From Bugula neritina (Eukaryota; Bryozoa; Gymnolaemata; Cheilostomatida; Bugulidae), in NCBI GenBank assembly GCA_964035545.1, contig OZ037771.1, forward strand, positions 11,970,980 to 12,034,979: 64,000 nucleotides of DNA, given 5' to 3'. Below the pieces are notes generated by a model. The model had not been told where the DNA came from and did no database searches. It worked only from the letters and a program-made list of their open reading frames with translations. This document shows positions 2,131 through 60,505 of the stretch, one piece after another. Each line of letters starts with the position of its first letter. Position 1 is the stretch's first letter. A program made the position numbers and the translations under genes.

Positions 2131-3324
2131 AGATATAAGCAAGTTTATGATTTGATATTCTAGATTCTATAGTACTATATAGTTTTTTAGATATAACTAT
2201 TACCAAACCTTATTACAAATGTAGAAGCTTTTTACAAAAAGGTGTGATTGCCTGCTCTATATAGCCTCTATTTGCAGTCTTTAGTTTTAGAAATGCAGTT
2301 TTAGGAAATTGTATCAATGTAATTATTAAAGCATTGCATCGTAACATATTTATGATATTTTTCCTACTGGTACACCAGGTATATCATGATGTTCTTAATA
2401 TATTACCTTTTTATCAAATATTTCTGAGTTTCAAAGTTTAACTCTCAAGTGATAAAAGTTAGTCATAAATGTTTAGGAAAGTTCCAAGATTGTCTAGAGT
2501 ATTTTCCAACCCTCAGTCTGCAACGTCTTTTAGTATACAGCTACACCTGATAATGGAATTTTTGTTGTCATATCAAATTTTCTGGAAATGTTTTCAATTA
2601 TCGTAGGAGAAATTAATTTTCTACTATACTTTGTACTTTGTCAATGTGCCATCTTATCTGAGTACTACTATTTGCTCTCACAGCAACCTGTACTAATTTT
2701 ATCATTCAAAATCATCTAAAAGCAGTTTCACTCTATAGCCATTTAAAAGTGATTTCAATATCTTAAGTAGTTTTACGTGAGAGTTGAGACTGTAATATAA
2801 TATGCATAGAATTACTATGGCTAAATGGACACCACCTTGATGCTCTCATGCATATAACACTAAAAAACTCACCCAAGTTTATAGTCGCCATCCCTGTATA
2901 CATGGAAGTTCACCATTAGGTTTCCAAAGCATAAACCAAACTTGTGCAATTACCATAAAAGTAATTAAAAAAATGACTTAAATTATGCTGCAAATTTATA
3001 CATTATTCAATAGAATTTAGGTAAGGTTAAGTTTAGTTTTGTGTAGCTTCAAATTGCACTAGCTGGGCTTTGTTTCAAAGAGCATTTTTAAATGCGCATT
3101 AACAAAGCAACTATGTGTTATATTAAACAGTGGTAGTTATAGCTTTCAACTTTTCAAAAGATGTTATTTTTCCAAAGTAGAATCTTAAGAATGCTCAGTT
3201 AGAAAACTTCATTTCTACATTTGTAGAAATTTTTGTTGGATTTTACTAGATTGCGCTGCAATTGTAGATACTTTTATATGTTCATCAAACTCTTGCAAAG
3301 TCTAACTCGTTATGACCACTATTT
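2131..3324. other. Non-coding interval
   Basis: AT-rich with no coding exon that I can support. A short piece at about 2868-2895 resembles the tail of the SINE described at 6312-6516, but is too short to call firmly. Confidence 0.5.
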
Positions 3325-3928
3325 ATAGCTATTGCCCTTGCAGTGAGTTTAATTATCACCGCGACTGCATACTGCGGCACCAGAGGATGATGAGATGTTA
3401 CCAGGGCCATGCCTCCGACGTGGATAAACTGACGTTTGCCCAGTTCTTTGACGTCATCTGCCCCCTAGTGCATGATCCCAGCAAGCTAGGTAGATTGTCT
3501 CGCGAGTTTGCAACCCCCCCCCCCCCCCCGTCCCATCACAGAAGGACCAGTGCCTAGGCCTCCTCGACTTGGTACAAGAAGAAGAGGTCAGACATATCCA
3601 TCTCCCTCGACAGTCCCCAAGAGTGATGCTGCAGCGGCTAGACACTAATGCTACCTCAGCTAGACACCACGATTGTGCCCAGCGGTCCCATTCTCGGGAT
3701 TCCATGTTGTCTGCCCAATCTCAGAAGAGAAAGAGAAAAGACTCCCCGTCCCCTGTTCCGACATCCATTCTTGCCCCTGCTACTTCCATCCACGAGGTGA
3801 AAAACAAAATCTCCACCTTGGAGGGCCAGCTACATAGGCTGACCCCCCAAGTCTTGGGGGTCACCAATGAACTGCATCTCCTGCAGGAGTCCTTACATAG
3901 ATTAAAGAAGAAAACCAAACACTCGTAA
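3325..3928 (+). pseudogene. Truncated ORF3 of a Ty3/gypsy element (zinc finger plus coiled coil)
   Basis: 3' half of the third ORF found complete at 50484-51572. It begins inside the second zinc-finger-like module (C-x-C-x12-H-x5-C, reading CPCSEFNYHRDCILRHQRMMRC across the module with the same spacing), continues with the domain ending SREF, and enters a run of C residues at about 3512-3528 where the frame changes. The second frame keeps SPRVMLQRLD and a C-terminal coiled coil containing LHRLTPQV and a terminal Lys-rich tail. The rest of the element 5' of this point is absent. Confidence 0.8.
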
Positions 3929-23123: not shown

Positions 23124-24273
23124 TTAGAGGATCGGGGTTTGGGTGTTGGTACTGGAAGGTTGAGAGGTGGTGGTTAACGCCTGCAAGTTGGTACTGGCGG
23201 GTCTAGGTTTCTTTCGTGCAGAAGCAACAGGGGTCAGGCCCCGCGCAGTGTTATCGTCTACTCCAGCCAGCACGACCCGAAAGGGTTGGGTGGTTGTTGG
23301 CTGGCTGGCTGCCGTGGGTCCCTCATCATCTGTGTCTTCTCTCGCAGGCCGACACGCCGAAAACCTTTGGAGGAGCGTTGCCCGTTTACGAGGGTCCCTG
23401 ATGTGGGTCATGATGAGTTCCCGAAACTTGGGGAACGAGGCTTCGTCAACCACAAATGTCCTGCCTGTGTGTCAACAACCTATGCGCTGGTGGCGCAGCA
23501 CATATTTCGTTGATAGGAGTACTACCCACATGAGCAGAAAACATTTGCATAGTGTTGTGGGGCGTGTACCCTCAGTCGTCAAGCGTTGGATAATTTCTTC
23601 TCGCATTGGCGGCACTTGAGGTTACCAGCCTCACCACACGCTCTGTCAATCTTGAGGCGGGTGTCTACTGTGATCCAGTGTTGGCGGTTATAGCTAACAC
23701 TCTGAGCAGCTCCAGTGCCTTCCATCCTTGGTCTCCTTTGTCAATTTCTATTGCTCCGCGTTCCAGGATAACCTGCTCTTCCCTTGCAGGTAGTTGTACT
23801 TCTACGGGTTCTAGAGCAGGCTCCACTGGAGCGACGAGCACTTGCTCATCAGGCCTGGGTGAACCTTTCAGGCTGGTGGCAGCTGAACAAGGGTTCCTAG
23901 TGAAAAGGGAGTGGCGCTGATTTGCCTCGGCTTTATCTATGTCCATCAGATTATCTAGAACAGTAAATACAGGCTGTGACTGGCCAATCATAACACTCCC
24001 AAAACTCGGCAATTGCTTATACGGTGCTTTAACAACTGGAACTTCAGGTGAGTCTAAGAGAGCTGCCAACCGCAAGTCCCGGTCAAACAGGTAGTCAAGG
24101 AGACACTCGTTGCCGAAAGTTATCTGGAAATATTTAATTATAGTAATTTCAACTCGATTGATTAAAGAAAGTTTATTAAAAGTTAGACTGAACTCCGAAA
24201 ATAGAGGGTCTAGTCTTAGAGAAATACCTGACTGAACACGGTTGTCCGACATCTCGGGTAAAGTTATTCCCAT
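23124..24273 (-). pseudogene. ORF3 remnant of element 4
   Basis: Broken counterpart of the element 2 ORF3. The N-terminal part (24273-23665) is an open frame with an acidic region. The middle (about 23630-23455) reads CRQCEKKLS, RLRVHAPQHYANVFCSCG and YSYQRN with stops between, matching the finger region CRLCQLHF, RLRVHIPQHY and CPCGEYSYHRD of element 2. The third part (23453-23124) begins VDEASFPKF like the element 2 VDEPSFPQF and contains FRVVLAGVD near its middle, matching PRVMLRRID. The coiled-coil end is not clear. Confidence 0.7.
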
Positions 24274-32860: not shown

Positions 32861-33935
32861 TTAATCCTGGGCTGCTCGTTTCATACGTTTGATGGACTCC
32901 TGTAGCGACCGGAGCTCACTGGATGCGGCATGAATGCGGGGGCCAGTCTGTATACCTCTTGCTCCAGGTCGTTTGCCCTAGTCTCTACTTCTCGTAGGTT
33001 GTGGGCCAGAGGGGATGAGCGGGAGAAAGTCCGCTGTTGCCAGTGTCTTTTTCGTTCTGAGGATGGAAGTGGGGGAGGGAGTGTGTACGTCTTCGTGTCT
33101 ACCCTCTGTAGTACGACACGGGGGAGTGTATGCGGTTGACGTATAGGATTGAGAGGTGGGAATTAGATGATTTTGTAGGCTTATCCATGGGTTCAGAGAT
33201 GATGGGTCGAGGAGAGGGAAAGCCTTGCTCCAGGCGAAATAGCCGAGCTGGGTCGGTGATGAGAGGTCTGATAGCTTCGAGGAATGCGGAGTAAGATGAT
33301 TTATCCACGTCGTATACGTGTCCCTGAAAGCAATGCATGGTGCGTTGATGACGCAGTAGATAGTCTCGATTATAACTATATTCCCCGCAGGGGCAGAACG
33401 TTGTGATAAAATGCTGCGGCAAGTGGACTCTCAGTCTCCGATGGGTTGTAAACCGCTGTTGACATAGCCGGCACTCGCGGTTATTGTCATCTCCTCTATG
33501 TTTCTTAATTTCTGTCTCTGTGGCAGGGGCAGTCCAGTTAGAGGTTGCTTCTAGCTGGGGTGGCAGTTGTCTGGTTGTGAAAGTTGGTGGGGCCGGCTCT
33601 GGGTCCCACGCCATCTCTAGGAAAGGCATGCCCGGAGAGACGGGCGCGAGTGTGTCTACAAAAGTAAAATTATTGTTAGATCGCGGTGGATCTTTACAAC
33701 ATAATTCTAGCGACTGTCGACTGTTACTAGTCTGAGAGTCACAACTCTTAGAATGCACTCGAGAGACCAATAAATCATGTGTGAACTGACCAAGAACAGT
33801 GTCTAGCTCCAGGTCTAACAGACCGTCGGCCATTACAGTGTCCTCGTCGTCATTCACGTGAAACGTGGTCCCCAGTAATTCTGATTCAATCTGATGAATT
33901 AGCTCAGAATTTACTGGCATCGAGCCCGTTTCCAT
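32861..33935 (-). pseudogene. ORF3 of element 1 (zinc fingers, coiled coil), frameshifted
   Basis: Starts METGSMPVNSELIHQIES, 18 bases after the end of the pol frame. An acidic N-terminal region (MADGLLDLELD) precedes a classical C2H2 finger (CRLCQQRFTTHRRLRVHLPQH) and a C-x-C-x12-H-x5-C module (CPCGEYSYNRD ... HC), then an all-helical stretch. A frameshift near 33125 ends the first frame at 33099. In the shifted frame PRVVLQRVDTK and the coiled-coil segment (LREVETRANDLEQEVYRL) follow, and a further shift leads to LRSLQESIKRMKRAAQD and the stop at 32861. No membrane span or signal peptide, so it is not an Env. Confidence 0.85.
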
Positions 33936-33952
33936 GGATAGGAATACAAGAC

Positions 33953-36900
33953 TTATGCTGGCTTACCTGTGAACTCGGTATTAATGTCCATACTCAACGT
34001 TCTTGGTAAGGTTGGAGCTAATTGTGAAGTACGTCTGCCCTTGGTAATGTCAGCGTAAGAAAAGGCTGGGCATCGTTTCTGAGACACGAGGTCGGAACTA
34101 TTTGCTTTATGCGCTATAATTCCTCCCACTATTCCGCCCTCGCAAAAGTTGATATTTGCGTGGGGTTCACAACTCCAACATTCCCCCGTACGGTTTTCCC
34201 CTAGACTTTCATGCGTGCCGCTTTTAATGCAGTCACATACGAAGTCTTTTAAATATGGTGGGGGTTTCCTCGTACGCTGTCCCCGTTCTAGGGGGGGTGA
34301 CACGCTCGCTGGTTCATTAGAAGGGGCCTCGAATGGCATCTCTACTTCACCGTTAGCGGTCACTTCTTCTTGTTCTCCGGATGAAGCCCCTCCCTCCGTG
34401 GGGGTTTGCACTTCCGGAACCGGCTCGGTTTCTGGAAGTGATGGAATCAGACTTGGCGGCGGCGGACGCGCTTCTGTTGGCAAAAGCTGTCGCTCTTCTC
34501 TCACCAAGTCTTCCTCCCGCGGTATGACCACTTCATATTCAGGTCCATGCCGACGTCGCCCGCGTGTTGTTGTCTGCCTCCTGGGCTCCAACAATGGGGG
34601 GGAGGCTTCTCCCACCGCGTCGGGGCTAGCCCAATACGGCTTCAAGCGAGACTCATTCTGGATAGACACCTGTCCTGAGCGCTCGATCTTGTACGTATGG
34701 TTGGGCATAGCCTCAACGATCACGTAGGGTCCCACGAACTTAGGCTGTAACTTAGCCGCCTGTCCGCGACGCCTACGGTAATTGACCATCCACACCTTAT
34801 CTCCCGCTTGGTAGAGGGGTGGTTCCTCGGAATCTTCGTGTCGCACCTTCCACTGCTGTTTGCGCAGCATTTCGTGTGCGACCTTCATTCGTTCCACTAG
34901 TTCACTGGCATACTCGTGGACCGAGTTGTCTTGCTCTGGAACGTGGTAGGTAAGATGGTCAGGGACGCGGGTCTCTCTCCCGAGCATCAAGAAGTTTGGG
35001 GTCTCACCAGTACTGGTGTGTGGGATGCTACGGTATGCACGCATGACTTGCGGCAACACCGTGTCCCATTCCTTTTGGCTGCGTCCAAGGAGGAGACTCC
35101 GGAGCGCATCACCTAGCATCCGGTTGTTGCGCTCCACCACTCCATTACCTTGTGGGTGGTAGGGGGTGGTCCTGCTCTGATTTACTCCCCAGAGGCGGCA
35201 AAAGTCGCTCATCAGTTGAGACTGAAATTGAGCGCTTTGATCAGAGTGTATCTGTTCGAGGAGACCGAAATAGCAGAATACATGTTGGTCTAGTACCCTG
35301 GCCACTGTTGGGGCTGACGCGTCTGGGATGGCCAGAGCGTCCGCCCACCTTGTGAAGTGGTCGGTCAATACTAGGATCCAACTATTGCCTCTGGGTGTTT
35401 GGGGCATGGGTCCGACCAAGTCTACAGCGACTACTTGCCAGGGCCTTTCTGCATATAGCCTCCGCCGTCTCGCTTCACCAGGGAGACGGCCATGCTTACT
35501 GGCCTGGCAGATCTCACACTGTTTGACTCTGAGTCGGACGTCCCGCTCCATTTGTGGCCAATACCACCGGAGTTGTAATTTGGAGATCACTCTCTTGACC
35601 CCTGCTTGGCCCTGTTTGTGAGTGTTCCAAATCAGCTCACGGCGGATGGCAGTGGGACAGACCACCCTCTTCCTCTCCAGGTGTCTGCCGCTGGCAGCTA
35701 GAGAGATGGTCAGTAAACCATCCTGCCCGATCCGCAGCGAGTCCCAACGCTGACAGTATAGCCGGAACTCGGTGCATCCCTGTCGTATGCGTTCCTCGCT
35801 AGGTCGTCACCCTTCCCTTTTGGCCCGATATATGTCTGCCACTACCCCAGGCAGCTCTTCTTGGAGCTTCTTCAGCTCTCGGACATTATCGGCCAGTACA
35901 GGGTTGGCGCGGAGGTTTTGTACAACCTTCGGGGACTCGTCAACCTCCTGTCTGAGTTGACCCTGGTCCCAGTCAAAAGGTGCTCCGTGGTGAGCCAACG
36001 TCTCCAACTCACATCGCGGGGGACCTCCGTCCCTCCTCTCGATGTTGAGACACTGTTTGCAACCTCCATCAAGTCGGCGGCTCAAACCATCCGCATTGCT
36101 GTGTCTCTTGCCCGGCCGATGTTCGATCCGGTATGAGAATTCAGCTAGGATTTCGAGCCACCGGGCGACCTGACTGGAGGGCTCTGCTCTCTTGCACAAC
36201 CAGATCAGCGAGGCATGATCCGTACGCAGCCAGAACTTCCTGCCGTATAAGTATGGTCTGAAGTGCTTCACTGACTTGATTACTGCAAGCAGCTCCTTGC
36301 CTGTAGTGCAGTAATTTCGTTCAGCGGGTGAGAGAGACTTGCTATAGTAGGCTACTACTACCTCTCGGCCTTCCTGCACTTGAGACAGCACAGCGCCAAC
36401 ATTTTGGTCACTGGCGTCAGTGTCGAGGATGTACTCCAGAGTGGGGTCTGGGTAGGCCAAGATGGGCACCGTTAGCAAGCAGCCCTTGAGGCGGTCGAAC
36501 GCTCCTTGTTCGACTGGGGTCCACTGCCACGTCACTCCCTTTGCGGTAAGCCGGTTTAACGGCTGTGCTATGCCTGCAAAGTCTGGTATGTATTGCCTGT
36601 AATACCCTACCAGCCCCAAGAAAGCCCGAAGTCCGGTCAAGTATTGGGGGGTGACCCAGTCTTCTATCGCCCGTACCTTTTCGGGATCCGTTGCCACGTC
36701 GTTTCGACCGACAACGTGCCCTAGGTACTTGACCTCCGGCTGCAATAGAGCGCACTTGGAAGGTTTGAGCTTAAGACCGGCACCTCGGAGTCTCTCGAAG
36801 ACCTCCTGCAGACGACTGACATGCGTCTCGAAGTCTGGGGAGATCACGATGACATCATCGAGGTAGACCAGCAGTGTCTTCTAATGGAGCCCGCTAAGGA

Positions 36901-38528: not shown

Positions 38529-39395
38529 TCAGTTGCGGCCCGCGGGGAGGAAGGGCGTCCGCGGGCCGTGACAGTTTAACGCCCCCTGGTGTTGGGGTCG
38601 TCCTTGCTGTCCATGGTCTTGACCAGCACTACTCCAGCCCGGCCCCACAGGTGTTGGGGGCAACCGCAGGGCCTGACCGGGGCCAGCGCCGGCCAGAATC
38701 GTTACAAGCTGTCCCAGCATCTCTACCATACGGTCCACTTCGGCTTCCAGAGGGGGAGCTTCGGGGCCTGTCGTAGCTCTGGCAGCACTGACTCCAACTG
38801 CGGGTGGGTTCCATTGCGCTCGATGCATTTGGGTAGCCAACAGGTAAGCTTCTCCAGCCTTCAGGGCATCCTCTATCCTGGTTATCCCTTTAGCTCGTAG
38901 TTGATGGTGTAGGCCCAGGTCGTTTAGTGACTGGACAAAGGCGTCGTAGGTGTAACGCTCTTGGTGTTGTGCTGGTAGATCACCATACGCAATTTGTGCC
39001 AGCTTCTTCACCGTCGCGGCGTGTTCTTGCAGCGAGGTCCGCGGGGCGCGGCACAATCTCTGTAGCTTGGTCCTGGCGTCTATTGCGGAGATGCCAAAAT
39101 GGGCCCGCAACGCAGCCAATATCCCGTCTATGGTCATCCCTACTCCGTACGGCTTGGCTTGCTCCGTCAACGCTCTCCGCAATTGGATAAGGGCCACTCT
39201 GTGCGGCCATTGGGCAATATCCATTACTTTTCTAAACTCTTGTATAAACTGTTCGACATCTTCTGACCCAGTAAAGGTGGGGGCTTTCAAGCAATATCTA
39301 TAAGCTTTTTCTCCCACATGATTCACAGGATTAACATCATTTCTACGCTCACCTTCTACTGGGGGTGGTTGCATTCTAGCATTTTCAGTCTCCAT
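38529..39395 (-). CDS. gag of element 1
   Basis: 288-residue open frame starting 15 bases after the primer site. The conserved core includes APTFTGSEDVEQFIQEF, IQLRRALTEQAKPYG and YTYDAFVQSLNDLGLHHQL, matching element 2 gag throughout, so this is the capsid-like part. The C-terminus is Pro-, Gly- and Arg-rich and lacks a CCHC zinc knuckle. It ends with TGA. The protease frame that follows is shifted by one base relative to gag. Confidence 0.85.
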   Translation of the reverse strand: METENARMQPPPVEGERRNDVNPVNHVGEKAYRYCLKAPTFTGSEDVEQFIQEFRKVMDIAQWPHRVALIQLRRALTEQAKPYGVGMTIDGILAALRAHFGISAIDARTKLQRLCRAPRTSLQEHAATVKKLAQIAYGDLPAQHQERYTYDAFVQSLNDLGLHHQLRAKGITRIEDALKAGEAYLLATQMHRAQWNPPAVGVSAARATTGPEAPPLEAEVDRMVEMLGQLVTILAGAGPGQALRLPPTPVGPGWSSAGQDHGQQGRPQHQGALNCHGPRTPFLPAGRN

Positions 39396-40897: not shown

Positions 40898-43737
40898 TCA
40901 AGAAATCCTATCTGTGTCAAGGTCAGAACTGCTTGAGCAAGTATCATATTCTCGATTCACCACACGGTGTGTGGTTATAAAAGGGTTGGCAAACTTCTTA
41001 GTAGTGTAAAGCACCTGGGAGAGATAAGAACAGACTATCAACAAAATAAACAATGAAATCACCAGGTAATTTAGCATACTGAGTAACAACATGTGCAGAC
41101 CACCTCGTAGCCACTACAATCAGCAAGGAGGTGTGTAGTTGCAGCAACAATTCTTTACTTCACCATACAGTATTCATTAAGAAATTAGGGGGGCGGAAAA
41201 CTTGCCATCCTGCCTTATCGGGTCTAAATTATTAAATTAGCGGAGTCAAGACTGAGAGGCAAGTCCTCTAGCAAAAAGAGAAATGCAGCTGATTGCTGGA
41301 AAATATTTGAAATAGCAAATATGAGGAAGATGTTAGTTATCAGCAATTTTCAACTTTAAAACTCCTAACAAAAAAAATTATAAAAAGATTATTATATCAC
41401 AATTCCTTAGCAAGCCTTAACTTCTGTACTCACACACAAGAGAGCTACAGTACCTGTACTCATACACAAGAGAGCTACAGTACCTGTACTCACACACAAG
41501 AGAGCTACAGTATCTGTACTCACACACAAGAGAGCTACAGTACCTGTACTCACACACAAGAGAGTTACAATATATGTACTCACACACAAAAGAGCTACAG
41601 TATCTGTACTTACACACAAGAGAGCTACAATATCTGTACTCATACACAAGGGAGCTACAGTATCTGTACTCACACACAAGAGAGCTACAGTACCTGTACT
41701 CACACACAAGAGAGTTACAATATATGTACTCACACACAAAAGAGATACAGTATCTGTACTTACACACAAGAGAGCTACAATATCTGTACTCATACACAAG
41801 GGAGCTACAGTATCTGTACTCACACACAAGAGAGCTACAGTACCTGTACTCACACACAAGAGAGTTACAATATATGTACTCACACACAAAAGAGATACAG
41901 TATCTGTACTCACACACAAGAGAGCTACATTATCTGTACTAATACACAAGAGAGCTACAATATATGTACTCACACACAAGAGAGCTACAATATCTGTACT
42001 CACACACAAGAGAGCTACAGTATATGTACTCATACACAAGAGAGCTACAGTATATGTACTCACACACAAGAGAGCTACAGTATATGTACTCACACACAAG
42101 AGAGCTACAACTGTGCCAATAGTGAAGCCAGCTAAGACGTCAGTTGGATGATGTTTATTGTCCATAACTCTGGAGAGACCACAGAACCAGGCCATACAGA
42201 TGAGGATAAACTGGATGACGTGTTTCACCAGGTAAGTGTAGTCAAAGCGTGGAACTCGCTGCTGTACATAACACTGCAGAAAATAAAAACAAGGAATCAA
42301 TTATAGTATTTTTATTCTGCACTGCACCGCGTGTTGTATGCTGTCTTTAGAATCTAGAACACTAGAACACCTACCAGGACATCTGCTGATAAATCTTAAA
42401 ATTAATAAGAAATTACAAAAGTATTTTAATTGATTGATTTATTGCATATCACAGATATAACAACATGTCGCAAAAAAAAGGTCAGGGTAAATAATGGCTA
42501 TAAAAGTAACAGGCAGAGAGATTTATTACTTTTATGGTGAGAAAACCAGAAGAAGATAACCCATCACAATCTTGTTCAATCGGCGGCACTTACTGAGAGA
42601 TAGGTGGCAGCAAAGGCAGCACCGGACGCATGTGCAGAAGGGAAAGACGTCCTCAGCTCATATTCCTCCATCTGATCAACAGCCAGACACGTGAAGTTGG
42701 TGATATACTGACCGTCAAAGCAGGACGACAACTCCACACTTGGCTGACACGCTTTCACGAAGTTAGGTCTCAGTTGACCAGAGCTGTACTTGGCTATGTC
42801 AGTAACAGCTGGAAATATTATCAGTATGAGTCATGGTAACAAAATGGCAGCTGCCTACTGTATCAGTTAGTAAAGATATGCTTTCTCAACACTAAACAGT
42901 TAAGTTTTCGATTATAAAAACTCCAACATGTATTAACATAGTCAATAGATTAGAAATACACATACAGCATATTATAATATCAGTAACAAGATTAGTGTTG
43001 GTTCAACAATGAAATAAAAGCCACAAAATACTAGAAAAACTTTGGACAAAAACTATTATTTGTCTAAATTTGGCTGCGAATGTATGTTAAAAGCAGTAGA
43101 CTTTGCATCAAATTGTGATGGTAATATGGTGAAGGAAATGAGAAAGGTTAAAAATAATACATGTATAATCGATTTCAGCTGAACATCTCACATGATAAGT
43201 CCGGCAAGGTTTGCTAGAATGTGCATAGGTTAGCAAATGGTTTCCTAACAAAATTGAAAGAAATTGAAATATGGCGGTTAAGATTAAGCTGACTCATAAA
43301 AGATTCACAATAAGCTTACACTGAGTGATTAAAGATCCAAATAACATCATGAAGTAGAAAGAGAAAATACTGTATAGGCAAGGATTTACAGAACAGCAGC
43401 AGACATCTTTATTAGGAATGACAACTCCCTGTCCCAGAGCTCTTCTGTATTGCAACACTTCAGTCACTATAAACTAGAACAAGTTAAGTTTATTAGTTAG
43501 CATTTGAGTAGAAAAGGTTCGAGATAGTAAGAGAAAAAGATTTGATATCAAAAAATATGTAACAAGCCTGACCAGCACTTACCAGCACGGCAGAGATGGT
43601 AAATGCTACGGCAGCTACAAGCCAACTTGGTAATGTAGTCTTCATATTAGGATACAGAATAGTTGGATCATTACAGAAAAAACCTCTTTTTGTTGGTGAA
43701 ACTTTCCCAATGTAAATCACAAGAGTTGGGGAAATCA
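40898..43737 (-). CDS. Phospholipid phosphatase (LPP/PAP2, wunen type), first exon missing
   Basis: Minus-strand exons 43737-43583, 43473-43320, 42808-42594, 42273-42094 and 41014-40898 join in frame with GT-AG borders, giving 272 residues. The first visible exon starts in mid-codon, so an N-terminal exon with TM1 is missing; element 2 begins 875 bp upstream and may lie in that intron. The signature [16 protein letters not shown] is typical of lipid phosphate phosphatases. Catalytic motifs are KYSSGQLRP (C1), FPSAHAS (C2, Ala where PSGH is common) and [14 protein letters not shown] (C3, nucleophile His and Asp). The family has six membrane spans and dephosphorylates extracellular lipid phosphates such as LPA and S1P. 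The donor of exon 5 lies at the edge of a 30-bp minisatellite that copies this junction. Confidence 0.9.
41420..42110. repeat. 30-bp minisatellite made of an exon-intron junction
   Basis: About 23 tandem 30-bp units. On the minus strand each holds the last 15 bases of phosphatase exon 5 (ending CTCTTGTGT) followed by 15 bases starting GTGAGTAC, so each carries a 5' splice site; some units read GTAAGT, some the weaker GTATGA. Because 30 is a multiple of three and no unit has a stop, the exon 5 frame stays open to 41407, coding decapeptides like [10 protein letters not shown]. Confidence 0.95.
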
Positions 43738-44612
43738 CTAAAAATTATTGTAAAATCATAATTCTATGATTAAACCATATGACTACTAGCCGACTCACTA
43801 AGAACTGCCCTTTTTTCATTGTCCCGCCCCCTTCCTCGTCACCTGCCCTGTATGCAAATTCTGATGCTACAAGAGGGTGCAGATATGGCAGCCCTAAACA
43901 TGCTCATAAGTAATAAAGTGACTTGATTAAAAAATCCTATCTTAAGCTACAATGTATTTGTTGTTAGCATAGACACTAATCTATAAAATATTTAGGTTAG
44001 CTTAGATTACAGTCGTTTACATTGATCTCAATACCGCCATTGCAATCATAAATGCTAATATTCATATTGGCAGTCATAGCCATAGTAGACATATGAAAGT
44101 ACTAATGCTATTATTGAAACTTTTCAACCACCCATGGCAACAATTAATAAGTTAGGTGCATGTTCTCTTAATAATGATACTTTCAATCGCAGAGTGAGCG
44201 TCACAAAATTCTTATACTCATATCCGTGTACTAAGTAAAATTATCAAGAGTTTTACTAATATTGATAAATTTTCATTACTACAGTAGAGATAACTATCAC
44301 TTAATGTCTGGCTATCCTATGATACTCTATGAGTCCACAATAAGTATGAAGTAAAAACACTACAAGTACAAGACTAAAACTGTAACTTATTCTTAGGGCG
44401 AGAGTCGATAGAAGTCGGTGTAATTAATTTCTTAGCAATACTAATACCAATAGTTACTAAAAGTAAAAGTAAATAAACTAGAAGTAGAACTAAAAAAAAT
44501 CTATCATTGAAAATAATTATATATTAATTTTAATTAATTAAACTAATTAATTAAAATTACCGTAGTATTACTATTAGTATCACTAACAGTAATAGTATCA
44601 AAAATAATATGG
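43738..44612. other. Non-coding interval upstream of visible phosphatase exons
   Basis: Very AT-rich, with a small palindrome of TTAATTAATT units near 44527-44558. No first exon of the phosphatase gene was recognised here. Confidence 0.5.
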
Positions 44613-44886
44613 TGTAGTGAGGACGTAATACGCGCGTCCCCCAAACGCCTTCAGCCTATCGGAGTGCGTCACGTGATAACCCTCAGCGAGTAGTAGTTTA
44701 TCAGTAGAGAGAGCGTACTAACTAAGCGAAGATGTAATTTCTAATCTGTGTACGTGTTGTATCTTTCTATATAATTAGTAGCGAATAAACTTTGTAAACT
44801 CTTACTTAAATACTTTATTGATGTGAATAAATAGACTATAATTACAAGCTAGGAACCCACGCATAGTAATTGCACAAATTACTACA
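44613..44886 (+). repeat. 5' LTR of element 2
   Basis: Starts TGTAGTGAGG and ends AAATTACTACA; the pair at 51930-52203 matches at 270 of 274 positions. Confidence 0.97.
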
Positions 44887-44887
44887 G

Positions 44888-44906
44888 TGGTGGCAGCGGT
44901 GGGATT
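44888..44906 (+). promoter_or_regulatory. Primer binding site of element 2 (tRNA-Leu)
   Basis: TGGTGGCAGCGGTGGGATT lies one base from the LTR and is complementary to the 3' end of a typical animal tRNA-Leu with CCA. Confidence 0.8.
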
Positions 44907-44947: not shown

Positions 44948-45772
44948 ATGGACGAGAGTGTAACTTCAATGGAAGAAGGTGAGCGAAACATTATTATAGG
45001 CCCTCTCGGAGCTGGAGAGGAGGTATATAGGAACACATTGGAGGTTCCCGTGTTCACGGGCCTCGAGGACGTTGAACAGTTCGTCCAAGAGTTCCGTGAA
45101 GTTGCAGCCATTACAAGATGGCCGCCAAGAGTAACTTTTACGAAACTGCGGATGGCACTGACGGAAGAAGCCAAGCCGTACGGGTGGAAGCCTAGCGTAA
45201 ACGGGATCATTGCTACACTACGGGCCCGTTTTGGCATGCCCGTTGCCGTCGCCAAGTCCAGGCTGCGAGGATTACTCCGCAAGACATGTACACCGCTTCC
45301 TGACCACGCCACTCTGGTGCAGAGACTGGCACGGACCGCGTATAGCGATCTGCCAGAAACACACAGACGGCACTATACATTCGAAGCCTTTGTACAGTCC
45401 CTCAACTATTTAGACTTCCACCACCAGTTACAAGCCAAGGGAGTAACCACGATCGAGGCTGCAATCCAGGAGAACAAGGCCTACGCTGGAGCCGAGCGAC
45501 TCTATAAGATGGAAGAGGCCACTCCCCAGACCTCTAGGGAACCAGACCATCCGGTCCGCATAGCTGCCGCGACCATTAAACCCCCCATAGAGATGGAGAT
45601 AAGCCGCTTGATGACTAAATTGGGACAATTGGTGGCGACGATAACATACAACCACTCAAGGAAGAGTAAGAAGACGGCCGCAAAGCCCCCCAGACCTATG
45701 ATGCGACGCTGGGAAAGCGGCAACCAGGGGCACCGCCGCCCAAGCGGCCCACGATTCCAACGGCAGCAGTAG
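44948..45772 (+). CDS. gag of element 2
   Basis: 274 residues, starting at the first ATG suited to the gag frame after the primer site. The core contains VPVFTGLEDVEQFVQEF, FTKLRMALTEEAKPYG and YTFEAFVQSLNYLDFHHQL, the capsid-like region shared with element 1. The C-terminus is Arg- and Pro-rich without a CCHC knuckle. The stop TAG (45770) sits in the context CAGCAG-TAG-CCACAA. The pol frame continues in the same frame with no other stop, so Gag-Pol could arise by readthrough, or the TAG may be a mutated Gln codon. Confidence 0.9.
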   Translation: MDESVTSMEEGERNIIIGPLGAGEEVYRNTLEVPVFTGLEDVEQFVQEFREVAAITRWPPRVTFTKLRMALTEEAKPYGWKPSVNGIIATLRARFGMPVAVAKSRLRGLLRKTCTPLPDHATLVQRLARTAYSDLPETHRRHYTFEAFVQSLNYLDFHHQLQAKGVTTIEAAIQENKAYAGAERLYKMEEATPQTSREPDHPVRIAAATIKPPIEMEISRLMTKLGQLVATITYNHSRKSKKTAAKPPRPMMRRWESGNQGHRRPSGPRFQRQQ

Positions 45773-48700
45773 CCACAACCTCCCTGGAGACCTCCAAAGC
45801 TCCGCGGGCCCAAACCGAGAGGAAAACGGGGTGGATGTCGCCAGGAGCCCGTACGGGCCCAGCGGCACGCCCCCCATCAATGGCAAACACCCCGGCGAAC
45901 CAGCCAACCGGGTCGACCACGACACCCCTTCTCTCTGCCTCTCACCAACCGCTTCGGTCCGTTACCAGTAATGGAACAGACCAGCGAGGCCCCTCAGGGC
46001 ATCGGGGGGGATCAAAACACCTTCCCGCAAGGAAACTCTCACCGGCCCCGCAAACCGCGGAACAAACGGGCACAGCCCCGTTCGGCCGAGACCGAGCACG
46101 CTGGGGGAGTACGGGTACAACCCCACGGAGGCAGCTACTTCTTGCCAGGGAAGGTGGCCGGTAAAGCTGTCACCTTCCTGTTAGACTCCGGGTGTACCAC
46201 TAATCTCCTCAGCCGTCGGGTCTTCGACACCCTCCCTCTCAAGGAGAGGGGAGCCTTAGCTCCCTATACCGGGGAACCGGGCACCCTAGCTGACGGGTCA
46301 CGGATTCCTTTCTACGGTATCATAGAAGTGACTGGGCGCGTCCGCGACCAGGCCATTCAGGAAACCTTCGTCATCAGCCCACTGGAGGAAGATGCCATAC
46401 TGGGGATGCCGTTCTTGAAGAGACACGGGTGCCATATCGACTTTAGCAAGTCAGCCATGCTAATGGGCGGCAAAGAGCTCACCTGTGTCGACAAGTTCGG
46501 TCGTCCCCTAGCGGGAGGTGTGCAGGTAGTACGGAACTGTACTATACCCGGCCGCTCCTGGGCTACCGTTCACTGCAGAGTGAACAATAGCCAACTCTCG
46601 GGGTTAGGGGTTGTCGAAGGTGCGCACACTAGAATCCAACTCGCCAGCAGTCTTAACCGGCTGACTGACCGAGGAGAGATCTTGGTGCAGTGTGTCAACC
46701 CCTTCTCCGAAGCGGTACAATTACCGTCAGGATCCATGCTGGGTCGCTTCCACTCCATCCAGGAGGAGGATATAGGGCCGTCGCTGGGAGCTGCGACGGA
46801 AGGTCCCCAACAGAGCCCGTCAGTTAGGCGGGGGACCGTCCCACCACACGTCAAAGAGCTATACCAGGCAGCGTGTGACGGCTGCACGGGCAACGTGGAA
46901 CGCCAGACTATGGCTCAGTTGCTACGTGATTATAGCGACGTGTTCAGCAGTGGGGACCATGACGTCGGCCTGACCACGGCCGTCCGTCATGAGATACCGC
47001 TTGCTGCAGAGACTACCCCTATTCGACAGCCCACTAGGAGGCTGGGACCCGAAAAGGAAAAGGAGGTCAGCCAACAAGTCCGGGATCTTTTGGACCGCGG
47101 CCTCATCGAGCCAGCACATAGTGCGTGGAGTTCGCCGGTCGTTCTGGTCCGAAAGAAAGACGGCAATTGGCGGTTCTGTGTGGATTATCGCAAGCTCAAT
47201 AGCGTGACCATACAGGACGCCTACCCCTTACCCAGGATCGACGAATCTCTGGACGCCTTAGCCGGCAGCAAGTACTTCAGTACGCTAGACTTGTTGAGCG
47301 GCTATTGGCAGGTCCCCCTCAGCCCAGACGCCCAGGAGAAGGCGGCGTTCATCACGCGGGACGGCTTATGGAAGTGGAAGGTCCTTCCCTTCGGACTGAC
47401 TTTTGCCCCCGCCACGTTCCAGCGGCTCATGGAACAGGTCCTCAGTGGACTGCACTGGAAGACACTGCTAGTATACCTCGACGACGTCATCGTGATCTCC
47501 CCAGACTTTCAGACACACGTCAGCCGTCTGCGGGAGGTCTTCGATCGACTCCGAGGCGCCAATCTGAAGCTCAAACCCTCCAAGTGCGCTCTCTTGCAGC
47601 CAGAGGTGAAGTACCTGGGGCACGTCGTCGGCCGTCACGGTGTGGCGACGGATCCTGAAAAGGTACGAGCTATAGAAGATTGGGTAACCCCCAGGATTTG
47701 ACCGGACTACGGGCTTTCCTGGGGCTGGTAGGGTATTACAGGCAATACATACCAGACTTTGCGGGGGTAGCGCAGCCATTAAACCGGCTCACCGCAAAGG
47801 GGGTGACCTGGCAGTGGACTCCCGTCGAACAGAGAGCGTTCGACTGCCTCAAGGGCCGCCTGCTGGAGGCCCCTATCCTGGCCTATCCAGACCCTGCCCT
47901 GGAGTACATCCTCGATACTGACGCCAGTGACCAAAATGTTGGCGCTGTGCTGTCCCAGGTGCAGGAGGGCCGCGAAGTAGTCGTGGCCTACTACAGTAAG
48001 TCTCTCTCGCCCACTGAACGAAATTACTGCACTACCCGAAAGGAATTACTGGCAGTAATCAAGTCAGTGAAGCATTTCAGACCTTATCTATACGGCAGGA
48101 AGTTCCGCTTGCGGACCGACCACGCCTCCTTGATTTGGTTATGCAAGAGAGCAGAACGGTCCAGCCAAGTCGCCCGATGGCTCGAGGTCCTGGCCGAGTT
48201 CTCTTACCGGATCGAGCACCGACCCGGTAAGAAACACGGCAATGCTGATGGACTGAGCCGGCGACCGGACGAGGGGTGTAAACAGTGCCTCAACATCGAG
48301 AAGAGGGACGGAGGTCCTCCAAAACCCGAGTTGAGAGCACTGAACCACTCTGAAACGGAGTATGACTGGGACCAGGGTCAACTCCTACAGAAGGCCGCTA
48401 CGCCCCCGGGGGCTATCCAACGCCTCCGTGCCAATCCTGTTTTGGCTGATAACGTTAGGGAGCTACGAAGACTCTAGGAGGACCTCCCTGGAGTGGTAGC
48501 CGACGTATATCGTGCCAAAAAGGAGGGGCGACGACCCAGTGAAGAACAACTGCGACAGGGATGCACCGAGTTACGGTCGTACTGTCAACGTTGGGACTCC
48601 CTGCGGATCGGGCCAGATGGTCTGCTGACCATCACAGTGGCTGCTCACAACAACCAGTACGGCAGGAAGAGGGTGATCTGCCCAGCCGCCATACGCCGGG

Positions 48701-50418
48701 AGTTAGTATGGGACACCCACAAACAGGCCCACGCCGGGGTGAGCAGGGTGCTCTCCAAGTTACAACTCCGGTGGTACTGGCCCGGCATGGAGCGTGAGGT
48801 CTGGCGTAGAGTCAAACAATGCGAAATCTGCCAGGCCAGCAAGCATGGCCGTCTCCCTGGCGTAGCGGGACGGCGTAGGCTATATGCTGGGAGGCCGTGG
48901 CAGGTGGTAGCTATCGACCTAGTCGGACCCATGCCCGTCACCCCCAGAGGAAACAGTTGGATCCTAGTATTAACCGACCACTTTACGCGGTGGGCGGACG
49001 CCCTGGCTATTCCAGATGCGTCCGCCCCCACGGTGGCCAGGGTGCTAGACCAAAATGTATTCTGCTATCTTGGACTACCTGAGCAAATACATTCGGACCA
49101 GGGGGCTCAATTCCAGTCCCAACTGTTGAGCGACCTCTGCCGCCTCTGGGGAGTAAACCAAAGCCGGACCACCCCGTACCATCCTCAGGGCAACGGGGTG
49201 GTGGAACGCAACAACCGCATGTTGGGCGATACACTGCGCAGTCTGCTCCTCGGCCGGGGTCAGGAGGAGTGGGATACGGTACTGCCGCAAGTCATGCGGG
49301 CCTACCGTAGTACACCACACACCAGTACGGGGGAAACCCCTAACTTCCTGATGCTCGGTCGAGAGACGCGAGTGCCTGACCACCTCACATACCACATCCC
49401 AGAGCAGGACTATACCATCCACGAGTATGCCAGTAAATTGATAGAGGACCTGAGGGCCGCACACGAAATACTGCGGGCGAAGCAGTGGCAGGTACGGCGA
49501 GAGGACTCTCAGGAACCACCCCTCTATCAAACTGGGGACTGGGTGTGGATGGTCAACTACCGTAGGCGTCGAGGACAAGCGGCTAAGCTCCAGCCTAAGT
49601 TTGTGGGACCCTACGTAGTAGTTGAGGCTATGCCCAATCATACGTACAAGTTGGAGCGATCTGGACAGGTCTCTGTCCAGAACGAAGCCCGCTTGAAACC
49701 GTATTGGGCTAGCCCAGGAGCAGCAGGAGCAGCCCCCCCCCCCCCCCCCCCGTTGTTGGAGCCCAGGAGGCAGACAGTAACGCGCGGGCGGCAACGGCAT
49801 GAACCAGAATACGAAGTGGTTGTGCCGCGGGGAGAGGACTTGGTGAGGCAGGAGACGCCACTCCCACCAACGGAAGTGCGCCCACCGCCCCCAGTACCAA
49901 GTCTACCCCCACACCTTCCGGTTCCGCATCCGCGTTCGAAAGTGCAAAACCCCCCCGTGGGAGGGGCTCCATCTGGAGACAACAGCGGAGAGGGAAACAC
50001 CACCACCAACGGCGGGCCAGAAACACCACAGGTGGAGCAAAATAGCCCACCAGTGAGTACGCCGCCCCAACCAACAGCTACAACCCCCTCTCCAGCTGAT
50101 ACGTCACCTCCCCTGGAACGGGAACAGCGTACTAGACAACCCCCAGCATACCTTAAAGACTTCATATGTGACCGTGTTACAAACGGCAGTTATGAAAGTC
50201 TAGCTGGGCGCCGTACGGAAGGACTGGCAACAAAGCGTGGGAGTTGTGAACACCACGGAAATCTCAACTTTTGCGAAGGCGGAGTAGTAAACAAAACTAC
50301 TACGCCCGGGGCAAATAGTTCCAGCCGTGCGCAACAACCACGCTGCCCAGTCTTTTCGTACGCTGACGTTGTCAAGGGCAGACGCATTCAAACTCAATCC
50401 ACGGACATGCAAGCTTGA
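45773..50418 (+). pseudogene. pol of element 2 (protease, RT, RNase H, integrase)
   Basis: In frame with gag after the TAG. Protease FLLDSGCTTNLLS (about 46170); RT with FCVDYRKLNS, FSTLDLLSGYW and catalytic YLDD in LLVYLDDVIVIS (about 47470); then a one-base deletion in a C run near 47692. RNase H with ILDTDASDQNVGAVLS and LRTDHASLIW (47680-48474) ends at a TAG (48475) in place of Gln. Integrase (48493-50418) has the HHCC finger ending CEICQASKHGR, Asp in IDLVGP, Asp in HSDQGAQFQ, Glu in VVERNNRM, and GPY/F (KFVGPYVVVEAM). The tail is Pro-rich and ends near YADVVKGRR. About 1550 codons from protease to stop. Confidence 0.92.
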
Positions 50419-50427
50419 ACGCTGAGT

Positions 50428-50472
50428 ATGATTACAAATACCGGGTTCTCAGGTAAGCTTGCTCTGAGCTAA
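50428..50472 (+). other. Short upstream ORF with conserved CAG/GTAAG before ORF3
   Basis: A 14-codon ORF (MITNTGFSGKLALS) between pol and ORF3 contains TTCTCAG/GTAAGC, a strong 5' splice-site match. Element 1 has the same place filled by MDINTEFTGKPA with TTCACAG/GTAAGCC, there in frame with pol. Conservation in both elements suggests a role in making the ORF3 message, but this is inference. Confidence 0.5.
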
Positions 50473-50483
50473 CATTTCCACTC

Positions 50484-51572
50484 ATGGAAACCAGTCTACC
50501 ATCAGTCAGTTCTGATTTAATCGCCTTGATTGAATCACAACTACTGGGGACTGAGTTCTACGTGAAAGGCGACGAGAACATAAAGATGGCCGACGATCTA
50601 CTAGATCTGGAGTTTGACACCATGTCTCTCTGTCAGTCTACACGACACGACTCAGTCCCTCGAGTGCTATCTGAAAAGATGTATGACTCCCAGACTAGTA
50701 ACAGTCGGTTGTCATCAGAATTATGGTGTAAAGATCACATTCGATCTAACAGTAATTCTGCTCTTTTAGATACCGCTCTCTCTCCTCTCTCTGGTGACAT
50801 GCCGTCACTAGAAATGGCTTGGAACGAGGAACCCGTTCCCACTACTCTTCCGGAGGCACTCTTACAGCAGTCATGCTGGGTTACACCAGATACAGAAACA
50901 CTGATACGAGAGCACAAAGGAGACGACCAATGCACCACCTGCCGTTTATGCCAGCTTCACTTCACTACTCCACGAAGACTTCGAGTTCACATTCCCCAAC
51001 ATTATTTCACCACCTTTTGTCCCTGTGGTGAATATAGTTACCACAGGGACTACATCCTCCATCACCAGCGAACTATGGGATGCCATGTTGGACACCTTTT
51101 CGAAGTCGACGAACCCTCCTTTCCACAATTCCTTAATCTCATCCGACCATTCATATCAGACCCAGCTCGCTATGAACGGCTGCGTCAGGAATTCCCCGCA
51201 CCCAGGACCATCACAAAAGGACTCTGCCCTAAACCACCCGAATACAGGAAACCACACGTACCCCGTCCCTCACCCCCCGCACGCACAGTGCCCCGCCCCG
51301 ACTCTATACCCAGAGTCATGTTACGACGCATCGATATACCACAGCGATGGCGTCCCTCTCCCCCCGTCTCCCCAAGGCCTTCTCGTAAACGGCGTTGGCC
51401 ATCTTCGTCCCCCAACCGACACTCTGCCCCTGCCCGGAATCTAGGCGAGGCAGAAGAGCGGATACGAGAATTAGAGAAGAAGGTGCAAAGACTGACACCG
51501 AGAATCTCCGCCGCCGCATCAGAACTCCGGGCCCTCTCTGCCTCTGTAGCCCGAATGAAAGGAAGCGCTTGA
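50484..51572 (+). CDS. ORF3 of element 2: zinc-finger and coiled-coil protein in the env position
   Basis: Uninterrupted frame of 362 residues, 66 bases after pol. Residues 1-50 are acidic (MADDLLDLEFD). Residues about 153-173 are a C2H2 finger (CRLCQLHFTTPRRLRVHIPQH, C-x2-C-x12-H-x3-H), and residues 179-200 a C-x-C-x12-H-x5-C module (CPCGEYSYHRD ... GC). A helical stretch follows (VDEPSFPQFLNLIRPFI), then a basic Pro-rich linker with IPRVMLRRID, and a coiled coil from about residue 319 (AEERIRELEKKVQRL). No signal peptide or membrane span. Homologues occur in element 1, element 4 and at 3325-3928. A nucleic-acid-binding, self-associating protein is inferred; no known family was recognised. 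Confidence 0.85.
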   Translation: METSLPSVSSDLIALIESQLLGTEFYVKGDENIKMADDLLDLEFDTMSLCQSTRHDSVPRVLSEKMYDSQTSNSRLSSELWCKDHIRSNSNSALLDTALSPLSGDMPSLEMAWNEEPVPTTLPEALLQQSCWVTPDTETLIREHKGDDQCTTCRLCQLHFTTPRRLRVHIPQHYFTTFCPCGEYSYHRDYILHHQRTMGCHVGHLFEVDEPSFPQFLNLIRPFISDPARYERLRQEFPAPRTITKGLCPKPPEYRKPHVPRPSPPARTVPRPDSIPRVMLRRIDIPQRWRPSPPVSPRPSRKRRWPSSSPNRHSAPARNLGEAEERIRELEKKVQRLTPRISAAASELRALSASVARMKGSA

Positions 51573-51897: not shown

Positions 51898-51929
51898 CAG
51901 AAAGTAGGGCTTTCTGCTGGGGGGGACGG
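51898..51929 (+). other. Inverted repeat and polypurine tract of element 2
   Basis: CAGAAAG (51898-51904) and CTTTCTG (51910-51916) are followed by CTGGGGGGGACGG abutting the 3' LTR. Confidence 0.8.
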
Positions 51930-52203
51930 TGTAGTGAGGACGTAATACGCGCGTCCCCCAAACCCCTTCAGCCTATCAGAGTGCGTCAAGTGATAACCCT
52001 CAGCGAGTAGTAGTTTATCAGTAGAGAGAGCGTACTAACTAAGCGAAGATGTAATTTCTAATCTGTGTACGTGTTGTATCTTTCTATATAATTAGTAGCG
52101 AATAAACTTTGTAAACTCTTACTTAAATACTTTATTGATGTGGATAAATAGACTATAATTACAAGCTAGGAACCCACGCATAGTAATTGCACAAATTACT
52201 ACA
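51930..52203 (+). repeat. 3' LTR of element 2
   Basis: 274 bp, with four substitutions relative to the 5' LTR. About 1.5 percent divergence points to a young insertion. Confidence 0.97.
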
Positions 52204-59083: not shown

Positions 59084-60361
59084 TTACCTAGCGTCTGTTA
59101 AGTGCGCAAGTAAAAATTTGCGTTTATGTCTACACGTGGTGGAAAGCTCTTTTCGTTTGTTGAGGGAAGATAATTCCGGTTGTTTTAAAATTATATACTT
59201 CTCATAGTTGCATAAATTACATCTATTGGTTAGGTTTGAGTATGATTTGCAAATCTTTAAAATATTCCATTTTAAGCTGAATTTCGTTTTGTTGTCTTTT
59301 AAATTCCAGATGTGTCTGCTGAGTTGCGTGCTGTTAGCTTTATCTGCATGTAGGAAAGAGGCTTTGTGGTTATTGAATCTGGTTTTGAAGGTAGTCGAAC
59401 AGAGTCCTATGTATGAATGGCTGGAATTATTGTCATGTCTTGTTACAGTTGCTTGGTATATTACGTCTTTGTATAAGCATTTACCATTTAGTGGACAGTG
59501 GGAAGGTTGTTTGCAGTTACATTGTGTGTCATTTAGTTTAGTAGCGGTAGTAGGGGTGTGTGCGGTTTTAAGTTTGTGATGGTTCGAGCCATCAATAATA
59601 TTTTTCATGTTGGGCATGCATGAATAGCTAATTTTTATAGTTTTCCTATTGAAAATTTTACTTAGTTGGTTGGATGGTGGAAAGCATTTGTCGATGATTT
59701 GAAGAAATTTCTTCCCTATTTTGGTTTTTACTGTTGAACTAAAAGGTGGGTTGTACCACAATATGTTTCTATTTCTATTTCTATTATTGTTGCTGGATTT
59801 AGGTGTCGGGTTATATTTTAATTTATAGTCATATCCACTGTTTGATAGTGCTTCTTGGTATGGTTGTATGGTGGTTTTAAACTCTTCTTCATTGGAGGAT
59901 AGTGAGCTAAGTCTTCTATTTATATTTTCTGGTATGTTTTTCAATATTGCAGGTGGGTGGTCGCTTTGTTTGTGAACGTAGAGGATAGTGTTTCCAGGTT
60001 TTGTATAGGGTTTATAGGATTGGTTAGTCAAGTTGAATGTTACATCTAGAAAGTTTACAACTTTCTTTTTGGCTTCTATTGTGATTGAGAGATTAAATTT
60101 TCTAAAAAAGTTGCAAATTTGTTTTTTGTTCTGTTCTATGTGTCTAGGTGTTCCTTCGCAAACTATGAGTCCATCATCTCTATACAGGCCTAAATTACAT
60201 TCTATATTCATTTCAGTAGTTAATAGATTAAGCAAATATATTCCAATTAGTTGGCAGGTTTCGGCGCCGTCATAACTTCCCATAGTGACATCAAAATTAC
60301 TGTCGTGTTTTTGTGTCCATTGCTCACCATTGGAGATAAGAATGGACTTTTTAGAGTGTAA

Positions 60362-60366
<5 letters not shown>
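59084..60366 (-). pseudogene. Penelope-like polyprotein, C-terminal part
   Basis: The open frame starts within RT just after the (TA)n array. It has SYDGAETCQLIGIYLL (RT motif before the catalytic box), then the catalytic GLYRDDGLIV, RT thumb (NFLDVTFNL), a linker, the conserved SYSCMPNMKNII, a Cys-rich CNC..CPLNGKC motif, YQATVTR, and the GIY-YIG endonuclease (HSYIGLCSTTFKTRFNNHKASF with the catalytic Arg, then WNLKDN). It ends in a Cys-rich CNLCNYEKY segment and SLNKRKE. The 5' RT motifs are gone. PLE proteins copy RNA at a nicked target; this copy cannot do so alone. Confidence 0.88.

Positions 60367-60443
<77 letters not shown>
60367..60443. repeat. (TA)n microsatellite at truncated 5' end of PLE copy 2
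   Basis: TA array marking the junction where the Penelope-like coding sequence stops. It lies 60 bp from the stop of gene 3. Confidence 0.95.
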
Positions 60444-60451
<8 letters not shown>

Positions 60452-60505
60452 ATATATATTTACATATATGTCTAATAGTTCATTTACATTCATAGGCCCC
60501 ACAAA

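Follow-up and report, generated by a model that had tools for sequence, protein, structure and literature searches.

The window analysed here is a 64,000-nucleotide stretch of the genome of the bryozoan Bugula neritina (contig OZ037771.1). It holds four retrotransposon copies, called element 1, element 2, element 4 and the truncated copy, each with all or part of a third reading frame, ORF3. Element 2 shows the Ty3/gypsy arrangement: between its LTRs, pol carries Pfam matches to an aspartyl protease, RVT_1, H2C2 and rve, in the order PR-RT-IN, as well as an SH3-type domain whose match lies below the Pfam cut-off. ORF3 of element 2 occupies 50484-51572 on the forward strand, encodes 362 residues without an internal stop, and fills the interval between pol, which ends at 50418, and the 3' LTR, just as a first-pass annotation of the window had described it. 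That annotation had also named homologues in the other three copies. They are found at those places, and all three are broken (Table 1). The element 4 copy matches the ORF3 profile weakly (23740-23582, E 0.0094; 23471-23127, E 8.5e-7) and has stops in its finger module.

A primer-binding site, TGGTGGCAGCGGTGGGA, which we take to be the complement of the tRNA-Leu 3' end, lies directly 3' of the 5' LTR of element 2 (44887-44905), and element 1 has an equivalent. Elsewhere in the window, a pair of open frames (~200 and ~300 aa) is repeated at 18729-20421 and 60506-62210, with the unit 78% identical; it has no Pfam match above the cut-off, and a third frame at 7276-8205 looks related to it by eye. 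Frames at 59084-60502 and 1307-1873 (reverse strand) are reverse-transcriptase-like and GIY-YIG-like, and by eye resemble Penelope-type elements, again with no Pfam match above the cut-off. A tandem repeat of ~30 bp at 41407-42300 keeps long open frames.

Table 1. Retrotransposon and ORF3 features in the window (in splice sites, a slash marks the cut)
Feature	Position	Strand	Basis or remark
Element 2, 5' LTR	44613..44886	+	Pair match 44611-44886 vs 51928-52203, 276 bp, 98.55% identical
Element 2, 3' LTR	51930..52203	+	LTR pair match
SD1, predicted 5' splice site AAG/GTGAGC, gag codon 11, phase 1	44976..44984	+	Second-best donor
Element 2 pol, 3' part (integrase, SH3-type domain) and C-terminal extension	48493..50418	+	Stop TGA 50416-50418
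Predicted exon 1, ATG + 22 nt, ends in phase 1, in pol frame in element 2	50428..50452	+	ATG-25-GT
SD2, predicted 5' splice site CAG/GTAAGC	50450..50458	+	Best donor
Predicted intron, 317 nt, structured RNA	50453..50769	+	Splice signals, folding, covariation
ORF3 codons 1-95, open frame overlapping predicted intron	50484..50768	+	Shuffles, distant-family alignment
Acidic/leucine motif MADxLLDLxLD, within codons 1-95	50484..50768	+	ORF3 reads MADDLLDLELD
Branch-point-like CTAAC, pyrimidine tract, predicted 3' splice site ...TTTTAG/A, phase 1	50746..50769	+	Acceptor score, conservation
Predicted exon 2 of ORF3, codon 96 to stop	50770..51572	+	Codon periodicity onset, dN/dS
Finger 1, C-x2-C-x12-H-x3-H, residues 153-173	50940..51002	+	Motif, conservation, predicted model
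Finger 2, C-x-C-x12-H-x5-C, residues 179-200	51018..51083	+	Motif, conservation, predicted model
Strand and two helices, residues 206-236, within folded domain	51099..51191	+	Predicted model
Basic cluster RKRRW, nuclear-localisation-like	51384..51398	+	Motif match only
C-terminal coiled coil, residues 315-360	51426..51563	+	Predicted model, heptads
Element 1 SD1, AAG/GTGAGC, in gag	39347..39355	-	Donor score
Element 1 exon 1, ATG to SD2	33967..33991	-	ATG-25-GT
Element 1 predicted intron, 311 nt	33656..33966	-	Acceptor exon starts 33655
Element 1 ORF3 homologue	32864..33935	-	Broken: three frame pieces 33962-33102, 33162-32884, 32977-32864
Element 4 candidate intron, 273 nt, CAG/GTATTT to TTCTAG/AT, phase 1	23955..24227	-	Homologous position
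Element 4 finger module and following helices, decayed	23127..23740	-	Weak profile matches
Truncated copy, finger 2 to coiled coil	3306..3925	+	Broken frames, three pieces

The ORF3 protein, its relatives and selection

ORF3 is predicted to begin with an acidic segment, followed by a finger module (C2H2 + C2HC) that helices flank on its sides, then by a basic, Pro-rich linker and finally by a coiled coil; structure prediction is confident for the finger domain and the coiled coil. The two finger motifs and the coiled coil, all picked out by the first-pass annotation, hold up in the alignment. The zinc ligands are CCHH in 59 of 68 rows for finger 1 and CCHC in 55 of 64 for finger 2, and 12 of the 13 a/d heptad positions are hydrophobic. 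Finger 1 combines the ligands of a C2H2 zinc finger with the predicted fold of one. The basic cluster reads RKRRW in 21 of 41 rows and RKRRR in four, the rest being other variants. A pattern resembling a nuclear export signal (NES) is matched by 43 of 60 motif-bearing proteins (a motif match), and it sits in the part encoded by the predicted intron.

Comparison of the predicted domain using Foldseek gave weak matches (best E 1.2), the top rows being C2H2 DNA-binding fingers. Classical C2H2 proteins such as Kaiso and ZBTB7A share the tandem two-finger fold of the ORF3 model, with an rmsd of 2.5-2.9 over 55-57 residues. RNA or DNA binding or targeting had been put forward as the role of the protein. 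ORF3 may bind nucleic acid; targeting gained no support.

Relatives of ORF3 are numerous and nameless. In the 215.8-Mb genome to which the window belongs, 1111 candidates were seen and 113 scored; the scored set may mix element copies with host genes and might contain a host gene from which ORF3 was captured. Among the scored copies are full-length frames in identity classes of about 56-58%, 60-66%, 74-84% and 92-98% to the query. Many genome copies are open, and the gene is high-copy. In a database of 5.8 billion proteins, 70 homologues were found at E ≤ 1e-3, 36-75% identical to ORF3 and without a name or Pfam domain, and a profile search returned 118 relatives, likewise unnamed. Scans of viral and genome contigs found none. 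No Pfam family reached its own cut-off on ORF3, and C2H2 matches on the element 1 copy were weak and below the cut-off.

The first-pass annotation had read the retention of ORF3 across families as a sign of selected function and had proposed dN/dS as one of the checks. Exon-2 dN/dS between genome copies is 0.062-0.089 for eight of ten pairs; the two closest pairs, whose dS is 0.05 and 0.07, gave 0.139 and 0.306. When the comparison was widened to 17 pairs, codons 149-245 gave 0.02-0.36 in 15 of them, the other two being saturated. Values above 1 occurred in these 17 pairs only at pS ≤ 0.05: four times in codons 1-95, once in codons 96-148 and once in codons 246-361. For element 1 versus element 2, the synonymous comparison is saturated in the fingers. 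A dN/dS near 1 is rejected, as values between genome copies lie far below it. By this measure of substitution, ORF3, present in many copies across several Ty3/gypsy families, is under selection.

Silent divergence itself differs between the two genes. Exon-2 dS is 2.3-5.1 times pol dS in eight of ten copy pairs (L039-L045, L048-L050; e.g. 0.79 vs 0.18), and 1.4 and 0.6 times pol dS in the two closest pairs. The raised silent divergence of exon 2 (50770-51572) begins near the predicted 3' splice site; recombination of a 3' block and faster silent change are candidate causes.

Predicted splicing and RNA structure

To look for splice signals, all GT and AG dinucleotides in elements 1 and 2 were given a score based on mammal-like frequencies, which may not be those of the host. 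SD2, just downstream of pol, is the best donor and SD1, in gag, the second best, among 412 GT dinucleotides in element 2 and likewise among 417 in element 1. No other site in the two elements matches the donor consensus at 8 of its 9 bases. For comparison, 41 of 364 donor 9-mers (11%) are identical between the two elements.

The same arrangement recurs in other copies. In 22 copies (elements 1 and 2 plus 20 others), the SD2 position is always the best donor of the stretch, with an ATG exactly 25 nt before its GT. All 22 have a phase-1 acceptor with a pyrimidine tract at codon 96, best or second best there, preceded by a branch-point-like motif (CTAAC in 20, CCAAC in one, CTGAC in one); in six, another AG deeper in ORF3 outscores the proposed acceptor. 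A locus-by-locus check found the same SD2, ATG and phase-1 acceptor in 30 of 30 scored loci, with a spacing of 317 nt. As the two sets share four copies, a 25-nt ATG mini-exon with a strong donor before ORF3 and an in-phase acceptor at codon 96 are present in 48 of 48 distinct copies. Within one family, some copies depart by a single base in the distance from SD2 to the ORF3 ATG. The DNA pattern of SD2 was found in no viral sequence and in three prokaryote contigs, which are unrelated.

Among 20 divergent gag starts, SD1 is exact in 15, a GT variant in four and missing in one, and 17 of the 20 have an upstream ATG in phase 1. In the element-2 family, the site reads GAG/GTG in 25 and AAG/GTG in four of 29 readable loci. 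Among all AG dinucleotides scored in elements 1 and 2, none upstream of exon 1 was seen to be a conserved acceptor for SD1. A mini-intron of ~53 nt ending within ORF3 codon 8 was dropped as a candidate, because no acceptor there scored above 1.3, versus 6.9 for 50770.

Upstream of exon 1, an in-frame stop lies 12 nt before the ATG in 17 of the 22 copies and in none of the five element-1-type copies, whose frame runs open into exon 1. In element 2, the pol TGA, 9 nt and the exon-1 ATG follow one another in a single frame (50416-50430), a layout compatible with reinitiation or stop readthrough. In element 4, the candidate intron, a multiple of three in length, has a donor ranked 7 of 263 and an acceptor ranked 5 of 398.

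Given these conserved signals, the 362-codon frame is probably not the whole gene, and we infer that splicing from 50452 to 50770 takes place.

The predicted intron was then folded in silico. As single sequences compared with shuffles, the introns of elements 2 and 1 gave z scores of -4.8 and -3.3, against a folding background of the elements that is also negative (means of -1.3 and -1.1). When an alignment of the two elements was divided into 134 windows, the three with the lowest z start in the intron (background mean -1.6). The consensus structure of 50400-50769, computed from nine representatives of 22 aligned copies, has a z of -10.8 and 17 pairs with double changes, versus 5.6 in shuffles. 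Neighbouring blocks gave -3.3 for the pol extension (9 double changes vs 8.4), and -2.7 and -0.5 for exon 2. With pairing partners slid by 1-4 columns over the 22 distinct rows, double-change pairs fell from 17 to 2-7 and paired cells from 0.97 to 0.31-0.38; the paired cells favour the structure by construction, because it was derived from nine of the 22 rows.

One predicted stem forms a hairpin at exon 1/SD2, and another, near the acceptor, holds the branch point. The intron also changes slowly: its mismatch (0.007-0.045) is lower than pol dS (0.05-0.33) and lower than 3'UTR mismatch (0.02-0.32) in ten of ten pairs each. An Rfam search gave no match. At the level of sequence comparison, the intron region holds a conserved, covarying RNA structure in the element 1/2 clade. 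Structure across the whole pol extension (z of -6.2 for element 2 alone and -3.9 for element 1) is not claimed, given its shuffle-like number of double changes. The candidate intron of element 4 shows no excess structure (z +0.45) and was rejected as a structured one; the RNA element may therefore be confined to the element 1/2 clade.

The first 95 codons

Codons 1-95 of ORF3 lie within the predicted intron, which raises the question of whether they encode protein. Between elements 1 and 2, codon periodicity is absent from the pol-frame segment 50101-50452 (33/33/30) and from 50457-50769 (31/28/36), and is present from 50770 onward (51/42/98, p 3e-11). Across four families, represented by one copy each, there is none in codons 61-95 (0.135/0.188/0.169) and a weak one in codons 1-60 (0.204/0.193/0.336), compared with 0.231/0.132/0.529 in the fingers. 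A substitution-type test of coding based on BLOSUM had no power, as even the finger core was not clearly above expectation.

Other signs favour coding. Elements 1, 2 and 4 keep the frame open to a degree reached by 5 of 4000 shuffles each, gaps within the first 95 codons are multiples of three, and residues 3-69 align with a piece of the Pol reading frame of L124, which belongs to a distant family (conditional E 3.6e-6; a second distant locus, L125, gave only 2.7 bits). Given these three signs, an intron alone cannot account for the region, and that simpler view was dropped.

The distant relatives connect this segment with Pol. A search with the N-terminal frame of element 4 returned 117 matches; 15 fall in single frames that are 1989-1998 residues long, with identities of 27-36%. 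Of two such frames that were read, one has an integrase core and an SH3-type domain directly before ORF3 and in its frame, at 26.0 and 28.3 bits (below the Pfam cut-offs of 32.6 and 30) in a stretch that begins inside the integrase domain. The L124/L126 relative has integrase and ORF3 in one frame of 1989 residues. From a candidate donor CAG/GTATTT to the best acceptor is 279 nt in L124 and L125, and 273 nt in element 4; since these spacings are multiples of three, removal of the interval would leave the reading frame unchanged. L124 and L125 lack the ATG-25-GT geometry that element 4 has. The N-terminus of element 4 scores against the ORF3 profile at a level matched by 22 of 2000 shuffles, and pairwise with elements 1 and 2 no better than shuffles, so that its homology is firm only with L124. 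For the pol extension, one homologue was found, and it ends before exon 1.

We conclude that codons 1-95 are of dual use: in the element 1/2 clade, an old protein segment has turned into a structured RNA that is probably removable. More tentatively, and with real doubt, this history can be extended to a Rev/RRE-like system that evolved from a C-terminal Pol domain. A stretch once read in frame with Pol, and optionally spliced out as an 'exitron' whose length is a multiple of three, might have become a structured regulatory intron that also codes for an alternative N-terminus, and the zinc-finger/coiled-coil part a trans-acting regulator.

The first-pass picture stands in so far as the third gene is shared, under selection and not envelope-like, and encodes fingers and a coiled coil; it had missed the apparent intron split, codons 1-95 as RNA, and the relatives in the Pol frame.

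Interpretation and known systems

The sequence data show a selected protein, conserved splice signals with conserved phase, and a conserved RNA structure. In the reading we prefer, and to which we give a probability of roughly 45%, ORF3 is a nuclear, multimerising regulator of the splicing or export of its own element's RNA, a post-transcriptional switch of the Rev/CERV type. In the element 1/2 clade, ORF3 would be expressed from a spliced RNA. Splicing at SD2 would link the 25-nt exon, which has an AUG of its own directly downstream of pol, to exon 2, which starts at codon 96 and would encode a nuclear protein containing the two fingers and the coiled coil. The intron, including the open frame of codons 1-95, would be a folded RNA retained in the unspliced genomic RNA. 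The fingers would bind this unspliced RNA and the coiled coil would multimerise, whereupon the bound RNA would escape splicing and leave the nucleus, or the splicing ratio would be set. If the intron were retained, a further and longer isoform could also be made, whose acidic, leucine-rich N-terminus is export-signal-like or activation-domain-like. Two conserved donors, a structured intron and a basic finger/coiled-coil protein are read most simply as post-transcriptional self-regulation; from this combination we infer nuclear location, binding of the intron RNA and an effect of that binding. Points against this reading include the structure matches of ORF3, which are to fingers that bind DNA and not RNA, the better-scoring AG deeper in ORF3 in six of 22 copies, the position of the NES-like pattern in the intron-encoded part, and the silent divergence of exon 2, which exceeds that of pol.

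The main rivals are transactivation and a role as part of Pol. A transcriptional transactivator, comparable to foamy virus Tas, would activate through the acidic leucine-rich N-terminus, bind LTR DNA with its two fingers and dimerise through the coiled coil. ORF3 has only two fingers, however, and the structured, slowly evolving intron and the two conserved donors would be left unexplained; we regard a transactivator as rather unlikely. ORF3 might instead be a C-terminal domain of Gag-Pol that serves assembly, reverse transcription or integration (e.g. chromatin targeting), with fusion via splicing or stop readthrough in the 1/2 clade. The single 1989-residue frame of L124/L126 and the five element-1-type copies open into exon 1 speak for such a domain, whereas the stop that precedes the exon-1 ATG by 12 nt in the other 17 copies speaks against it, and fusion would have no need of a structured intron. 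This role seems to us unlikely.

The splice signals could also be chance or by-products of coding, the 362-residue frame being translated from the ATG at 50484 and the RNA structure serving packaging or reinitiation after pol. The open frame and the conserved N-terminal residues fit such an account. It is nevertheless improbable, as the mini-exon, donor and in-phase acceptor recur in every distinct copy and the switch in periodicity falls at the acceptor. That ORF3 is an envelope protein or membrane fusogen, a reading the first-pass annotation had already set aside, is suggested by its env position and by nothing else. In 12 full-length proteins no 19-residue window reaches a hydropathy of 1.6 (maximum 0.96), which leaves no candidate transmembrane segment, and the predicted fold is that of zinc fingers; we reject this possibility with near certainty.

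Full-text searches of open papers found no description of the ORF3 layout, in keeping with the first-pass annotation, which knew of no such family. Other non-envelope frames have been described in similar places. The ORF3s of LTR elements in bdelloid rotifers likewise follow gag and pol as a third ORF, but they differ from the frame here in being enzymes, GDSL esterases or DEDDy exonucleases, in the account given (PMC5408684). In plant Gypsy elements of the Retand type, a putative DNA-binding ORF lies, as here, between pol and the 3' LTR; it differs in being antisense and in having a TRP28 domain, according to the passages that describe it (PMC11963269). The sORF1 and sORF2 of the Drosophila MDG1 group are accessory small proteins of LTR retrotransposons, a helix-turn-helix protein and a fusogen, with sORF1 nuclear. 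Unlike ORF3, they lie mostly upstream of gag, and the passages on them report no zinc finger and give no evidence of splicing (PMC11952523).

The closest parallels to the preferred reading, self-regulation of unspliced RNA, are export systems. HIV Rev, whose RNA element is located in env, has an Arg-rich motif instead of a zinc finger, which sets it apart from ORF3, and we claim no homology. What Rev/RRE and other retroviral export systems, as outlined in the Cer1 study, have in common with our proposal is a structured RNA, carried in an intron that unspliced RNA alone keeps, together with a nuclear protein that multimerises (PMC10309623). The nearest precedent is CERV of Cer1, a Ty3/gypsy element of C. 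elegans. As described in that study, CERV is made from a spliced RNA that shares the gag start, is required for export of Cer1 genomic RNA, and has a basic cluster (KRKK), a candidate NES, a potential leucine zipper and a Cys-rich possible finger (PMC10309623). ORF3 is likewise a Ty3/gypsy accessory protein with a basic cluster, an NES-like pattern, a predicted zipper and Cys-rich fingers. In the same account, CERV has H, M and G domains and five exons, the first three in the gag frame, and no obvious homology outside nematodes (PMC10309623). ORF3, by contrast, has a C2H2 + C2HC module located after pol, the two proteins being compared by layout. In the open literature searched, Cer1 is the only Ty3/gypsy element found that reportedly encodes an export factor for unspliced RNA. 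If our reading is correct, ORF3 would be another solution, unrelated to that of Cer1, whose RNA partner is visible and whose origin can be traced inside Pol, and would indicate that retrovirus-like RNA control arises repeatedly in retrotransposons.
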